Shown here piece after piece: positions 30,942 to 48,400 of a stretch of 64,000 nt of DNA. The notes beneath the pieces were generated by a model. It saw only the letters and a list, made by a program, of their open reading frames with translations. It did not search any database and was not told the origin of the DNA. Each line of letters begins with the position of its first letter. Positions within the stretch are counted from its first letter, which is position 1. The stretch is from positions 186,001-250,000 of the forward strand of contig JAGTXX020000002.1 of assembly GCA_019044685.2 (NCBI GenBank). The letters are read 5' to 3'. The position numbers and the translations under genes were made by a program. This DNA is from Nannochloris sp. 'desiccata' (Eukaryota; Chlorophyta; Trebouxiophyceae; Chlorellales; Chlorellaceae).

Positions 30942-32111
30942 ATGGCACAAGCGAGACCCACGCTCGACCGAAAGGCAGCAGAACAAATCAACATCAATGT
31001 ACTGAAACGGCTGGACCCACAAGTAGAAGAGGTCAGTACATTTGAATATATTTTTTGATGGCCCAGATTTTTTGAAAATAGAAGAGTCTATTCTGACTGA
31101 TTTTTAAGCTATTGCCATCTCTCAATTATAAATCATGTCACATATAACACGACTCCATAATTCTTCTTACATCTACAGCTGTTGGCTACTGCTGCCCACG
31201 TAGCTCTGTACAATTTCGACGTCCCGACCCGTCGCTGGACTCGCAAAGACGTCGAAGGAAGCTTATTCCTCGTCAAACGACGCGGTTCCCCTCGTTTCCA
31301 GATTGTGATTCTCAATAAAAAGAGCGCAGACAACTACGTTGAAGACGTAGGTGGCGGTTTTCAATGTGAATTAAATCCCCCGTACTTGCTTTACAGAAAT
31401 AAAGTTGGGGAGGTGGTAGGCATCTGGTTTTATGAAGAGACTGACTGCAAACGTATGTGTGATATCTTATCAAAAATGTCCTCTACATTCGCTGCACCTA
31501 GCGATGCTGAAGCTGGAGTTGGTCATGGAAATAACAACAACAACAACAAAGGGGACAGTGCTCCGTCTTCTCAGCCTGCAAGCCCTGCGTATGCCTATTC
31601 AGCAGCTATACCAGTAGATACTAGTTATGGGCAGGAATCTGCACAACAAGAAGAAGAAGATGAAGGAATATTTTGGGATAAGAAAGTCGAGGTGCCTGCA
31701 GAGGTGGGCATGCCAGGCGGTGCGGGAGCAGCTAGTACCGAGGCGGCAGGTGCTCCTAATGCTTTGGCTGGTTTGTTAGCTGGGTTAAAGGTAGCTGCTG
31801 CACCACAATCACAAACCGCAGCACCTCCATCTGCGACGCCTTTGTTAACGCCACAGTTTTTGCTAAACCAACAACAACAGCAGCAGCAGCAGCAGTCAAG
31901 ACCTCCTGCACCCTCTACTACAGAAAATCAAGGAGCAATGTTGCTGCAGAGTCTGCGTTCTTCATCAAGCAGTGCAGTGCCTGCACCTACAGCATTTGCT
32001 GCGATTGCAAATGTTGATGCTGGTAAAGTGTCGGCATTGCTGAGAGCCTTAGCAGAGAATAAAATGTTTTGTACTGAGCTGGCCAAAGAGATAAGACAGG
32101 CAGGGCTTTGA
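30942..32111 (+). CDS. DCP1: mRNA-decapping enzyme subunit DCP1, 2 exons
   Basis: The exons are 30942-31031 and 31179-32111 (340 aa). The EVH1-type domain fills about residues 12-140: NINVLKRLDPQVEELLATAA, HVALYNFDVPTRRWTRKDVE, GSLFLVKRRGSPRFQIVILN, DNYVEDVGGGFQCELNPPYL and VVGIWFYEETDCKRMCDILS. This matches plant and animal DCP1. DCP1 activates DCP2, which removes the 5' cap during cytoplasmic mRNA decay in P-bodies. A Gln/Pro/Ala-rich linker, including a CAG-coded Gln run near 31870-31895, joins the EVH1 domain to a short C-terminal helix (KVSALLRALAENKMFCTELA) that may be the trimerisation helix. The donor GTCAGT is shared in type with ALG5. Confidence 0.93.
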
Positions 32112-33051
32112 AAAGCTTTGCTCCGCTTGATTTCATAACAGTTAAGGCATGATGCACACCTGTGCTAGAGAATGTGTAAAAGATTGCTAGAAGATGGCAC
32201 GACAGTAACAGTTATTCAAAAAGGAAGAGGCAAATATTCATCATGATAAGGAACTAGAAATAAAAGGTGAGCAGGCAAGAGATGGGCAGGCGGCGTGGCG
32301 GCGGCAACCATAAACAAATACAAGTACGATCTAGCTTTAAAGTATGGAACCGAAATAGAAAAAACCCATCATGCAGTTATATATGAATATATGTTATATA
32401 TCTCCCGAAGCAGCCTTGCATCTTCCATTGCGTCCATTGCGATCAACGATGATCAAGAGAAAAATATGACTCTCGGAAAGTATTAAACGCTGCAATAACA
32501 TTATAAAACAATCTGGATGCTCAAGAAACGCGTGTCATTCGGTATCGTAGTTTAAGATTTTAGGTTGATCGTCGTCGAATCAAGTTCTCCAGCCAAATGA
32601 TGTTCAAATTGAGTGTTGAAAATTTTAAAATGTTTCTGAAGACAAGAAAGACGTGGTTCTGGCTTGGAATTGCCGGAAAAACTGGCGCGCGGCTTGATTG
32701 ATTGATTGGTGGTTACATAGCCATTGACAGCCAGCTGGCTGCGTCCGGAGTACTTCAAGAGAATTAATTATCAAGGACAAGAAACAGACAAGAAGAACAG
32801 AAACGGAATGCAAAGCACGGGCCCGGGGGTCGGAGGCCTGAACCCCCCTTGTAACTTGGAGAGGCCTTACAAATCCAAGAACAACCTAATTTTCTTGTGC
32901 CTGTGAGACGCAATAACTGCCACATGGTCAAGAAAACTTCCACCAGAGAACCACAATCTCAGACCGTAGACCTCGCCAATAGCTAGTATTTCGGCTATAA
33001 TTCGATAGAGTCCGACAGCAAATCTACGAGGTAAAACCGGGCGAACCGATG
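32112..33051. other. Gene-poor stretch
   Basis: This is the 3' flank of DCP1 and sequence with only short frames. No gene, repeat family or RNA gene is supported here. Confidence 0.45.
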
Positions 33052-33118
33052 AAAAACCCCACGCCTGCTTGGGTAATCGGGACTCGAACCAGGGAGTTTA
33101 AAGTCATCACCAGGACTA
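33052..33118 (-). ncRNA. Possible Pol III unit or tRNA relic (A box, B box, T run)
   Basis: On the minus strand an A-box-like TAGTCCTGGTG (33118-33108) is followed by a perfect B box GGTTCGAGTCC (33090-33080) and then TTTTT (33056-33052). A D-arm-like hairpin, AGTC and GACT around an 8-base loop containing GG, covers the A box. CGCGCC just upstream can pair with GGCGTG just before the T run. There is no anticodon arm, and the would-be T stem pairs at only three of five positions. It is best read as a tRNA-derived relic or a small Pol III transcript. Confidence 0.3.
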
Positions 33119-33203
33119 ACTGGCGCGCGGCGGAAATGGGGTTTTTTTTTTTGCTAGAAAGAATTTGTAGAAGATAGAATGCGAATTTTTCGATCCATCA
33201 ACC

Positions 33204-33283
33204 ATCTACAGGTCCTGCGTTCGATTCGCAGTCGCGGCTGTTACAGGCCGCGGTAGCTCAGTGGCTAGAGCAGTTGATTGCAG
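33204..33283 (+). tRNA. Permuted tRNA-Cys(GCA): 3' half precedes 5' half
   Basis: The 3' half (33204-33239, positions 38-73) lies upstream of the 5' half (33247-33283, positions 1-37), with a 7-base spacer. Joined in tRNA order, the pieces give exactly 73 nt. The acceptor stem is GCCGCGG with TCGCGGC, seven pairs of which one is G-U. The D arm is GCTC/GAGC around AGTGGCTA. The T arm is CTGCG/CGCAG around TTCGATT. The variable loop is AGGTC. The anticodon loop is TTGCAGA with anticodon GCA, and the discriminator is U73, as expected for Cys. The B box therefore precedes the A box (TAGCTCAGTGG). The anticodon stem GTTGA/TCTAC has one U-U mismatch; a perfect partner TCAAC lies 7 bases further upstream (33198-33202), so the exact 3'-half start is open. 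Permuted tRNAs are known in Cyanidioschyzon and prasinophytes, where the circularised precursor is cut at a bulge-helix-bulge. Confidence 0.8.
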
Positions 33284-34164
33284 TTCATTTTGTTTTGCTT
33301 TATTCCTGAACCACAAAGTACTAGAACTTATATGGGACTTTTTGCCACTGAAACCCAAATCTGCCGCCGAAATGGATTATTTATTATTATGTCTTTTCTC
33401 ACTCTGCCACCTATTTGAAACTCGATCTATCTCCATCAATTTAAACCATGTGCTTGGTATTCTCTTGGTCGGCACTTGGAGTGACTGTTACAAGCTGCAT
33501 TTGCTGCTCTTCTGGAAAGGGAAAATTTTCATCGTCAGCGGGTGTTCAGGAACATTTATTTATTTATTTGTAATTTGGATGGCTTCGGTTTCTTCTATCG
33601 ATACTATCTTATTTTACTGTAAACAATATGTATCAGATATGAAGAACACTCAGGATGTTGGTTTAGTATAGCTCAAATCTTGTTTTCCTTCATACCACGT
33701 TACTTCGAGCGGCATATACCGGTAGTTGTTCGTCAGCAGAAGCAGTTTTCTATTACCGATTGTCAAATGACTAATCGCCACTGAAGTCAAACTTCTTAAT
33801 CTACGGTCTCAGTAATTCTCTCCGCCAAAATACCGACTTTTGCCAGGACCTCTTCAAAGAGCTTCATAAAAATTTGTTCCGTATGTACCGCTCGGGCAAC
33901 AACACTCGACTTAAATCCGTAGAGTCATTCTTTTAGGTTGCTTCAAACACATACCGTTTTGTTCCTAGTTTAACTCAATCTCAATGAGCGCAGACTTAGA
34001 TAAGGAGGGCAAGCCTGCATTCGTTCTGTTGTTGTTGAATTAATGTGAGAATTTGTGTAGTGATTTGAATTAAAGTGGGTGGCTATATACTTATAGTATA
34101 TTTCTCAGAACGTCACATCATATGTTCAATATATTATAAAATAGTTTATATCATGTATCACCCT
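33284..34164. other. Gene-poor stretch downstream of the tRNA
   Basis: TTTT runs at 33288-33295 could end the Pol III transcript. The rest holds a 136-codon open frame that starts inside the tRNA, has no protein-like features and is not accepted as a gene. Confidence 0.4.
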
Positions 34165-35679
34165 TCATTGTCTCCACAGCTTCAAAACTCGATCTTTTCC
34201 ACCAGAAGCCACCGCCCCACCATCTGGACTCCAATCCACCGTGAAAACCTCATCAGCATGCCCAGGTAAATCAACTAACACTTTCTTAGACCTCATATCC
34301 CATACTTTCAACGTTGAATCTTTTGACCCCGACACAGCTAACCTTGAATCGGACGACCATGCTACTTGGTACACAGGGCCTACATGCGCGCGTAAAGTCG
34401 AAACAAATGCACCAGTCACACCATCCCATAATTTAACACTTTTATCAAACGAGGCAGATAAGATCCAACGCCCATCAGGTGAAAAGGTAACCTGGTTGAC
34501 TAATTGCTGATGTCCTGTCATTCTAGCTAAGGGGGTCTTGCTCGTGCTAGGCTCCCACAAACACAGCGTAAAATCATCAGATCCAGTAACTAATCTTTCC
34601 TTCTTTCCACCCAACGCAGCTTCATATCGTTCTTTTGCAGCGCTACGGGCTTCCTCACCATCCAACGGTGCTTTCCCCGTATGGTCAAAGGCGCCAGTGC
34701 GCAAAGCGTAATCAGAAGAGAGGGACATGGTATTCACCCAATGGCCATGTCCTTTTAAACTACGGACTAATTTTCCATCTTCAGCGGCCCAGACATTAAT
34801 GGAACAATCCCTCGCTGCAGAATAGAGTAACCCATCTCCGCCCCATCGCACTGCTGTCACTGCCTGCGTGTGAGAGCTCATAGTAAACAGCAACTTTCTA
34901 CCCAACGCATCCCATACACGAATCGTCCCATCTTTTGACCCTGAAGCAAATCTACGGACAGGTAACTCCACGTGCGCAGGTTCCCAAGCTAAAGAACTAA
35001 TAAATTTTCGGTGGCCTTTACATTGGCCCAGCGGTTTGCCAGTTGCAGGATCCCAAATCCATATCACTCCAGAATGATCACCTGAAGCAATTAACGCTGC
35101 ATCTGGACTCCATGCGACAGCTAATACCCATGCAGTGTGACTTTTACCTACAGATTTAGGTGTTTGAGTGCCTAAATCCCAAAAACGAACGGTGCAATCA
35201 CCACCTCCAGAGACCAAGCGCTTTCCGTCTGGAGAGAAATTAACAGTTAAAACTGCCTCTGTATGGCCGGGGATGGTGGCAGAACAGCGTGCAACTGGGC
35301 GTACTTTGAACACAGCTTGAGGTTGATAGACCACACGAAGGACAGCTTCTACAGAAACGGCATTTTTCTTTAAATGAGCGCCCAATTCGGCGGCTAGTTC
35401 TTGTTCGTTGATGAAGAAGGAATACGGCAGGCGTTCTTCTTGTTGTAATAGGCCGTTGAGAAGGGTTTCTAGTTGTTCGGGGGTGACGTCGTGTGGGACA
35501 TCAAGTTGAGGACCTGTTGGGTCGCCTTCTGGAGATTGGAATTGAATAATTACATTTGCTGAGGCATCGATTCTAGCAGGAGCAGCAGTGGTGGTGGTGG
35601 TGATCGTCGTGCCAGCGGCGGCGGCGGCAGCGGGAGCATCAAGTTTGCGCTGTTTAGCAGGTGGCGGGGCAGATGTCAT
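34165..35679 (-). CDS. NLE1: Notchless homologue NLE1/RSA4, WD40 ribosome assembly factor
   Basis: This is a single exon of 504 codons. An Ala/Thr-rich N-terminus is followed by the NLE (UBL-like) domain (about residues 40-120: VIIQFQSPEGDPTGPQLDVP, LPYSFFINEQELAAELG). An eight-bladed WD40 propeller follows, with repeats such as GHTEAVLTVNFSPDGKRLVS, GHRKFISSLAWEP and GHADEVFTVDWSPDGGAVAS. This is the domain order and usual length of NLE1/Rsa4. Its UBL-like domain binds the MIDAS domain of the AAA ATPase REA1/MDN1, which pulls it off pre-60S particles in the nucleus. The gene is head-to-head with RIO2, a 40S assembly kinase, with 473 bp between start codons. Confidence 0.95.
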   Translation of the reverse strand: MTSAPPPAKQRKLDAPAAAAAAGTTITTTTTAAPARIDASANVIIQFQSPEGDPTGPQLDVPHDVTPEQLETLLNGLLQQEERLPYSFFINEQELAAELGAHLKKNAVSVEAVLRVVYQPQAVFKVRPVARCSATIPGHTEAVLTVNFSPDGKRLVSGGGDCTVRFWDLGTQTPKSVGKSHTAWVLAVAWSPDAALIASGDHSGVIWIWDPATGKPLGQCKGHRKFISSLAWEPAHVELPVRRFASGSKDGTIRVWDALGRKLLFTMSSHTQAVTAVRWGGDGLLYSAARDCSINVWAAEDGKLVRSLKGHGHWVNTMSLSSDYALRTGAFDHTGKAPLDGEEARSAAKERYEAALGGKKERLVTGSDDFTLCLWEPSTSKTPLARMTGHQQLVNQVTFSPDGRWILSASFDKSVKLWDGVTGAFVSTLRAHVGPVYQVAWSSDSRLAVSGSKDSTLKVWDMRSKKVLVDLPGHADEVFTVDWSPDGGAVASGGKDRVLKLWRQ

Positions 35680-45486: not shown

Positions 45487-48400
45487 ATGGAACAGCAAGT
45501 ATTTTGTGTGCGTGTAGAAGGCTTTACATTGCCAAAAAATGTCAAAAGGAAGTGGGAGCAAGGTAGAGAAGCTGCTGCTTCTGCACGCAATACAACCTTG
45601 GAGAACTTGGAAATAAAGTTGCAGGCTGCTGAGCAACGCAGAGAGGTGAGTCTATTGCGCAAGGGAACCAGATTGAAGTGTTTTTGCATTTGCGATTCAA
45701 ACAGAGCAAAGGAAGTTACAGTAGCTAGGGTGCTGGAAACCAACGTATTATTGATCATATGCAACCTTGCAAATTTATCCTACATAATTGTGCAACCTCG
45801 ACAGGGATTCCCTTTCGAATTTTACTTGTTGCTCATGCCCCTTGCGCACCCATTTGCAGACAATTTACGAAGCTCGTCGATCCAAGGCCAATCGCTACCG
45901 CGTACGCACTGTGCATGATCCTTCGGTAGCTCTAGAACGCCTGGAGAAGCGCTTAGCTGCTGCTGAAAGCAAACGCCTTGCCGTTCTCCATGCCGTAAAG
46001 GTCCGTGCCGCTGTCACTGCCAACCGCGCAGCTGCTGTCGCCCGCACTGAAGCTGCACGCCGGAACCAACTTCAATCCCGCTTAGAGCAAAGTTTAGAAG
46101 CTGCTGAAGCAGCGAGAGCTGCTCATTTAGCCCTCACAGCTGCTCGTGCCGCCCGAACCTCCAGCAAAGCCTCTGCCAGTGCTCGTGTTGCCAAACAACG
46201 GGAACAAAATCAAGCAGCTTCACGATTGACTACACTTTTACACCGTATGAAACGTGCGGAAGCTTCAAGAGAGCAGGTGCTCGTTGCTAGAAAACAAAGT
46301 GCTGCGGCAGTTGCCGCTTCCTCTGCCGTCGCCATCCCTACTGGTTTACAGCAGATGCAAGGTGGTGCTATCAGTATGTCGATTTCCCCATTAAATAATG
46401 CACCCATACTTCTTGGAGACTTTTCTACCGACATTTCTATGCCCACCACAGACGTTAATTCTACTTTCCACCAGCAACAGCAACAGCACAGCAGTAGCCT
46501 CATCGGCTCGAACGCTGGGCAATGGCTTCGTCGCCAAGCAGCAGCACGAAGAATTCAACGCAGCTGGCGTTGTTTTGCTTTAAATACCGGCACTATGGAA
46601 GCTTTAGTTAGCTCATTCGCTGCTACAAAGATCCCTTTCAGCTGTAAAGCGGTCTTAACCACAGAGACCCCACCTGTATTTAATTCGGAATCGGCTGCAG
46701 CTGCGGCTCCTCCAAGCATGGATCACCAACAACAAGAAGAAGAACAGCAAAGGAATCAAGAAGATCTTGCTTCTCTTTCAGGAGACAACAGCCCACGATC
46801 TACTTTACCTCCTGGTCGTATTATATTCCCTGATACTTCTAGTAACCACAGTGGCAGAACCGCTCCAGCAAATACCCCAGCTGATGCCCTCACTCCTGCA
46901 GATAGCAGCACACCTGCAGATACGCCCAGGGCTGGTTCACCTCCTATATACGGAACTCATACTCCGCCTATGGCCGTCCCTATCCCTGCTTCTTCTGCTA
47001 CAGTAGCAGCAGCAGGAGGGGCAGAAGACGACACTGTTGCTGCTAATGCACCTGCAAATCTCACAGAAACGAGCCAGCCTGTATCAACTAGTTTCTCTTC
47101 ATTCTCTCCAAGTCCTCGTCGCCAACCAGTCGCTCGTTTGGTATCTAGCCTGGCAGATATGGCTGCATCGACCTCTCTCCACGAAGAAAGTCCAGTGCCT
47201 TTACCAGCGTCTTTCCACCAGTCAACGCTTTCTTTTGACGAATTCGCTGAAGCAATGAGCGCTACTGAAACTTTAAAAGCAGCACAAGCTGTGCTTAGAA
47301 GATTTGAAGATATGGGAAAGGCGAAAAAAAGCTTTGCTAGAGGAGATTTGTGTGATGGGCTATTAAAACGCTTATTTCCTAAATTGCCAAAAGGAAAGAA
47401 GGCTGCTAGATACCCACCAAGAGCGTTTTTATCTGCGTATATGATTCAATCACACCCAGAAGTGGTATTGAGTCAGCAAGGACCGAGAGAGACCGCGTTA
47501 GCAGAAGCTGCTGCGAGGATGCTTGCTTTTTTTGAGGCTCTGCTTTCTCGCTTTCTGCAAACTTCTTCTTCCTTTTGGCCTTCTTCTGCGTCGCTTCCCT
47601 CTCTTTTGAGGCAGTTTGACGAGTCCTGGGTTGCGTATTTAGAGATTTTTATTGCATGGAAGAGCCATGATGCAGCTGGATTGGAGGCTGAATTGATTCG
47701 GGCAGCAGTGGAACTAGAGACATCCCGCTTGCTCAAAGTAGGCAGCAGAGCTGCTGCTACTGCTATTACTGCCGGTGGTGGTGCAGGAGTCGCTAGTAGT
47801 GCTACTAGTACTATACATGCCACTGCTGCTATGCGCGCTGAGGCAGCAAAACAAGATCTCGAGGCACTGGAAGAAGGCGTTGACCATGATTTAAAGTTGA
47901 TTTCTGAACGAGTTGAACGGTTGACTGGGCAACAAGGCGCTGCTCGATTGGAAGCTGCGTTAGCAGCTGCACGTGCTTCTGCTGAGCAACAACGATACAA
48001 TTCTATTAATATGGTCACAGAAGCTACTATTACCACTACTACCACCACTACTGCCACTGGTGTTAGTGGTGGTCCTTCTCCGTCAAACAGCCCAGCAAAG
48101 AAGGTGCAACGCAGACAAGGCCAGTATGCCAACACCTCTTCCTCCTCACCTTCACCTTCTTCCTCTGTTCCTTCCTCACCAAAACAAGCTTCTCCAACAG
48201 AAGAAGAAGAAGAAGAAGAAGAAGAAGAAGAAGAAGAAGAAAAAGAAGAAGGAAGAGGCCATGGTCAACGACACCAACCACAGAGTCAACAGCAACAACC
48301 TCAGCCTGGCAGCAGTGGCAATTTGGTATTGATGTGGCAGCTTCTCTACGATTCCACGTTTCATCTCCCCACAGACGAAGCTGAATCTTCTTGGAAAGAT

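Follow-up and report, generated by a model that had tools for sequence, protein, structure and literature searches.

The window analysed here, a stretch of 64,000 nucleotides from the green alga Nannochloris sp. 'desiccata', contains at 33204–33283 what is best read as a permuted tRNA-Cys(GCA) gene with a 37/38 junction, the transcript of which would be matured by splicing endonuclease and ligase (Table 1). A first-pass annotation had placed the 3′ half upstream of the 5′ half with 7 bases between them, and direct reading of the sequence confirms this arrangement. The 3′ half begins with A38 and continues with nucleotides 39–43 (TCTAC, 33205–33209), the variable loop 44–48 (AGGTC, 33210–33214), the T arm (CTGCG-TTCGATT-CGCAG, 33215–33231), the acceptor strand TCGCGGC (33232–33238) and U73 at 33239. 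The 5′ half comprises the acceptor strand GCCGCGG (33247–33253), TA, the D arm GCTC-AGTGGCTA-GAGC (33256–33271), A26, nucleotides 27–31 (GTTGA, 33273–33277) and the loop TTGCAG with the anticodon GCA at 33280–33282. As had been claimed, the acceptor strands pair at all seven positions (six Watson-Crick pairs and one G-U pair) and the two parts add up to 73 nt (36 + 37) with the split at 37/38. The T stem (5/5 pairs) and the D stem (4/4 pairs) are complete, and the anticodon stem consists of four pairs and a U29-U41 mismatch, the single U-U mismatch described in the first pass. U73 is a feature of tRNA-Cys, and its presence together with the GCA anticodon fits tRNA-Cys identity. Upstream of the gene, TTTTT is found at 33186–33190, suggesting that transcription starts after this run and that the leader is at most about 13 nt long.

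Table 1. Features of the tRNA-Cys locus (positions refer to the window).
Feature	Position	Strand	Basis or remark
Leader end	33190..33203	+	A33201 (-3) complementary to U32; sequence, pairing table, folding
3′ half, positions 38–73, B box inside	33204..33239	+	Sequence, pairing, R2 covariance model, ARAGORN
7-nt intervening sequence separating the acceptor strands	33240..33246	+	Sequence, pairing table
5′ half, positions 1–37, A box inside	33247..33283	+	Sequence, pairing, R2 covariance model, ARAGORN
Trailer, TTTT at 33288–33291 and 33293–33296	33284..33296	+	Probable Pol III terminator

In genomic order, no tRNA is recognised in the window by ARAGORN, nor by Rfam at the gathering threshold. 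With the halves swapped, ARAGORN names a 73-nt tRNA-Cys(gca). A strict scan, the criteria of which were set after the gene was already known (T stem 5/5, acceptor stem 7/7 with the strand downstream, D stem 4/4, U8, U33 and at least 4/5 pairs in the anticodon stem), yields this locus as the sole match in the window and no match in 4284 dinucleotide-shuffled windows, both strands included. Twelve permuted genes of the genome, tRNA-Cys not among them, were used to build the covariance model R2, which assigns 62.0 bits to the locus, and the next match within the window reaches 8.1 bits; R1, which includes tRNA-Cys in its training set, gives 72.3 bits.

The weak second R2 match corresponds to an inverted repeat, AACCCCA ... 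TGGGGTT, on the minus strand of 33050–33150, which is flanked by T runs, encloses a B-box-like GTTCGAGTC and shares an 11-nt identity with the 3′ half of Arg(ACG). It is perhaps a degenerate tRNA or a tRNA-derived foldback. A long TTC/GAA simple repeat is located at 48134–48242, with several spurious matches to microRNA families of Rfam at relaxed threshold.

The genome contains at least 18 permuted tRNA species at 19 loci, and the junction lies at 37/38 in 18/18. These are Cys(GCA), Tyr(GUA), Arg(UCG, UCU and ACG), Ile(AAU and UAU), Lys(CUU), Phe(GAA), Met(CAU, L045), Leu(UAA and CAA), Ser(GCU), Gly(UCC, and GCC at two loci), Ala(UGC) and Thr(AGU and UGU). Nine collinear nuclear species were found, namely Val(UAC), Gln(CUG), Met(CAU, L003), His, Pro(UGG), Pro(AGG), Ser(UGA), Ser(CGA) and Asp, two of which were read by eye: Ser(CGA) at L010, called Pro(cgg) by ARAGORN, and Pro(AGG) at L083. 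ARAGORN returned the expected name for all 18 permuted genes after rotation and for none in genomic order, and all six sub-cut-off matches of RF00005 (L011–L016) are permuted genes, Cys included. The acceptor stem is fully paired in 17 of the 18 genes (6/7 in Thr(UGU)), and the spacer ranges from 5 to 55 nt, with 7 nt in Cys. The U29-U41 mismatch is common to Cys and Ala(UGC) only, and Leu(UAA) is mismatched at 31-39.

The census relied on short ungapped D-arm and B-box patterns, which do not depend on which half comes first, and the resulting loci were then examined by a mechanical scan and with the models R1 and R2. The patterns alone delivered 17 permuted versus 7 collinear species, with Gln, Met at L003 and Arg(ACG) coming solely from RF00005. 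Pattern places in which a D arm looked plausible on visual inspection were selected, 8 of 65 and then 8 of 22, a few others being already in the set. The first eight comprised four permuted genes, the collinear Pro(AGG) and three non-tRNA stretches (L077, L079 and L082), and the second eight contained no tRNA. R2 was applied to 71 of 85 loci; the other 14 overlap tested loci, save the second copy of tRNA-Ser(GCT) (L005/L060), which was covered by R1. The alignments of permuted genes use length-normalised rows. The second Gly(GCC) (L081) is counted as a locus and not as a species, and L059, L051 and the two copies of an organelle-like tRNA-Ser(GCT) (L004/L005) stand outside the counts. Since the census patterns found no tRNA for Asn, Glu and Trp and no further isoacceptors of several others, and since L059 and L051 are uncounted, the permuted and the collinear numbers are both lower bounds.

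Several loci of the census show additional features. L059 (1488–1566) is permuted-like, with a good T arm and acceptor stem and no clear anticodon arm (34.7 bits with R1, 31.6 with R2), and it has the same acceptor-strand sequences as collinear Val(UAC). L051 (about 1250–1523) displays a Pro-like 3′ half followed by a T-run; its 5′ part is unclear and at least 120 bases upstream, and the locus may be collinear and interrupted by several introns. At L078 (about 22–54) a second T-arm-like stretch, GTTGGTCGATGGTTCGACTCCTACCGACC, adjoins the 3′ half of permuted Thr(UGU) on its upstream side and is possibly a leftover duplicated 3′ half. Gly(GCC) and the organelle-like tRNA-Ser(GCT) are situated about 77 kb apart in each of two contigs of the assembly (G000), C6 (about 2.47–2.55 Mb) and C13 (about 0.22–0.30 Mb). 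The two regions may be copies of a large duplicated segment or belong to different haplotypes, with an insert of organellar origin.

Parallel junctions in one genome reveal a recurrent signal at the leader end. Nucleotide 32 is the Watson-Crick complement of leader position -3 in 14 of the 18 permuted genes (U32-A in 4/4, C32-G in 10/14), compared with 4.1 expected from leader composition (P = 1.2e-6). Among 41 control shifts of 10–50 nt, at most 7 pairs were obtained, and shuffling of the leaders among the genes gave a mean of 9.1 pairs (p = 0.0047). The junction registers had been fixed by variable-loop length or stem pairing and are independent of this pair, which is absent in Ile(AAU), Lys, Gly(UCC) and Thr(AGU). 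Position -3 is a purine in 16/18 and position -2 a pyrimidine in 17/18 leaders. The 32/-3 pair occupies the position of the anticodon-intron (A-I) pair used by the eukaryotic splicing endonuclease, and it is also present in four of the six introns of collinear intron-containing genes. Reliance of eukaryotic splicing endonucleases on anticodon-intron pairs is described in a review (PMC3978253). In tRNA-Cys, U32, U33 and G34 face complementary leader bases (A33201, A33200 and C33199, respectively), and the CC^A bulge is present as well; the first-pass annotation had likened this arrangement to a relaxed bulge-helix-bulge. C35 faces U33198 and does not pair, so that the central helix extends over three of four positions. 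As the full four-pair helix (32–35 with -3 to -6) occurs in only 2 of the 18 genes, the bulge-helix-bulge is a weak element here.

Downstream of the 5′ half, TTTT follows position 37 within 20 nt in 17 of the 18 genes (background 11.7%) and within 24 nt in all of them, and it occurs in none of the 18 spacers, the Cys spacer included. Owing to a T-run after the 5′ half and none in the spacer, every permuted gene has the predicted layout of one Pol III unit. The leaders, judged by eye, share no clear upstream motif.

The junction of tRNA-Cys is spanned by a tandem 7-base near-repeat, with CATCAAC at 33196–33202 in the leader and CATCTAC at 33203–33209, from one base before the exon start onward; our guess is a recent 7-bp duplication followed by one substitution in the exon copy. 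The TCAAC at 33198–33202, already recognised in the first pass as a perfect partner, pairs completely with 27–31. This opens a second register for the same permuted gene, in which ATCAAC (33197–33202) would represent the true positions 38–43 and the tRNA would measure 80 nt, 12 of them in the variable region, or in which the second 7-mer would also be removed. Plant tRNA-Cys has the sequence ATCAAC AGGTC, which agrees with the leader copy. In addition, ARAGORN accepts the 80-nt form as tRNA-Cys, and constrained folding of the precursor favours the leader copy (-27.0 kcal/mol) over a fold with no anticodon stem (-24.0), the exon strand (-23.3) and the exon strand with the central helix (-22.5). 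The free minimum-energy fold is a non-cloverleaf at all six leader lengths tried. However, in the second register the A-I pair is lost, U32 lying opposite U33194, the variable region exceeds the length usual in tRNA-Cys, and this would be the sole gene among the 18 with a leader copy that forms a perfect partner. We consider the second register unlikely and prefer the exon register, with the split before A38 (33204), because it retains both the 32/-3 pair and a 5-nt variable loop.

A different reading would make the locus a relic without function, left behind by tandem duplication of a tRNA gene, the cellular tRNA-Cys being supplied by an undetected collinear gene. Tandem duplication with subsequent loss of the outer halves is indeed an origin model given in PMC3978253, and a diverged collinear tRNA-Cys could be overlooked by RF00005, which scored 63 of 825 first-look candidates. 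Against this reading, the mature 73-nt sequence matches the 21.55-Mb genome at this locus only, as two separate halves, and no Cys is found among the 10 loci above the RF00005 cut-off; the search for a collinear tRNA-Cys(GCA) proposed in the first pass as a check was thus negative, within the range of the DNA comparison and of the 63 scored candidates. Within 31500–35000, the gene itself aside, there is no match of more than 12 bases to either half that could represent a leftover. Moreover, all stems are intact save one pair, an intron-like leader end and a terminator are present, and 17 further species of the same genome are permuted. The relic reading, which the first-pass annotation had itself put forward, therefore finds no support and is very improbable. 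Still less credible, to the point of being negligible, is a tRNA-like non-coding RNA such as YrlA, in which a T arm is followed by a D arm: the corresponding Rfam match (33208–33274, 26.9 bits, E 0.15) stays below the gathering score of RF02553 (69 bits), and the locus has an anticodon arm with GCA, U73 and a complete acceptor stem, while the other permuted genes bear 17 other anticodons.

Leaving these readings aside, the locus is, with high confidence, a functional and apparently single-copy circularly permuted type II nuclear tRNA-Cys(GCA) gene, one of at least 18 permuted species, the product of which would mature via a predicted circle. Homologues of the endonuclease subunits Sen2 and Sen34 are encoded in the genome, and a search for a ligase, conducted for RtcB, identified a homologue at two loci; together, these proteins could cut and join permuted precursors. 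PMC3978253 describes cleavage, circularisation, spacer removal and CCA addition as the established route for permuted tRNAs of algae. For tRNA-Cys, Pol III would produce a single RNA that runs from the leader through the 3′ half, the 7-nt spacer and the 5′ half to the trailer; its arms would fold while the leader end mimics a tRNA intron at its 3′ end. The Sen endonuclease would then cut before A38 (33204) and after G37 (33283), and a ligase, with RtcB as candidate, would join 37 to 38 and thereby close the circle. Finally, RNase P and tRNase Z would take out the spacer, and CCA would be added. The earlier proposal that this alga uses the permuted pathway for tRNA-Cys thus gains support from the uniqueness of the gene, the leader pairing in 14/18 genes and the presence of Sen2, Sen34 and RtcB homologues. 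A partial match to Tau95 (TFC1), covering 42 of 144 model positions, indicates that this part of TFIIIC, at the least, has been retained in a genome whose permuted genes carry the B box before the A box.

The occurrence of permuted tRNA genes in Cyanidioschyzon merolae and green algae, mentioned in the first pass, is borne out by the table of PMC3978253. Permuted tRNA-Cys(GCA) genes with a 37/38 junction are listed there for Ostreococcus lucimarinus, O. tauri and Micromonas pusilla (Maruyama et al. 2010), with spacers of 26, 38 and 12 bp, respectively, in contrast to 7 here. All three are prasinophytes, and the table lists between 3 and 6 permuted genes for each of them, whereas at least 18 tRNA species are permuted in the present alga. 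According to the same source, permuted Cys of O. lucimarinus is followed downstream by an additional 5′ half; none was found here in 31500–35000. C. merolae shares the 3′ half preceding the 5′ half and the T-run after the 5′ half, and the circular intermediate demonstrated there is predicted here. However, 11 of 43 genes are permuted in C. merolae, the largest set in that table, and their junctions fall at several positions, whereas here 18/18 are at 37/38; according to the review, C. merolae is without identified homologues of TFC1/TFC3, in contrast to the partial Tau95 match described above. Within the alga itself, the intron-containing tRNA genes (L006, L007, L008, L009, L010 and L083) have the same 37/38 junction with the halves in normal order.

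Permuted genes are also reported for a trebouxiophyte, Auxenochlorella UTEX 250-A (PMC12633428 / PMC12636532), in which the tRNAscan-SE set was incomplete and permuted genes were found afterwards; this alga may be equally rich in them. It is a different species, as judged from the Notchless homologue at 34165–35679, which has its nearest matches in green algae and among the best 120 of 2469 matches is 94% identical to a metagenome protein, 77% to Micractinium tetrahymenae and 71% to an Auxenochlorella hybrid, with no named protein being identical. This one protein suggests that the alga analysed here is itself a trebouxiophyte. For the Amorphochlora nucleomorph, two permuted tRNA genes are reported.

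A permuted tRNA-Cys(GCA) gene is thus already known from other algae, and the surprising part is the high permuted share in this genome. Permuted tRNA genes have been regarded as rare, the 2014 review counting 34 in six species of algae and a single archaeon (PMC3978253). No report of a permuted majority was found in a search of the literature on permuted tRNAs, Trebouxiophyceae included, and on tRNA introns, a search outside of which most subscription papers lay. On balance, we regard it as probable that permutation is the default for nuclear tRNA genes of this alga, with most species, Cys included, encoded solely in permuted form and hence in need of endonuclease, ligase and circles, despite the B-before-A box order in most genes and the retained part of TFIIIC. 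If true, the genome exceeds the 11/43 of C. merolae and points to repeated conversion of intron-containing into permuted genes. Ordinary tRNA finders overlook most tRNAs in such a genome. With 18 parallel junctions in one genome, the rule followed by the endonuclease becomes readable (nucleotide 32 pairs with -3, -3 is a purine and -2 a pyrimidine), and genes with inverted boxes raise a sharp question on Pol III promoters. A genome with 18 of the 27 nuclear tRNA species found in permuted form would make a system of what was a curiosity.
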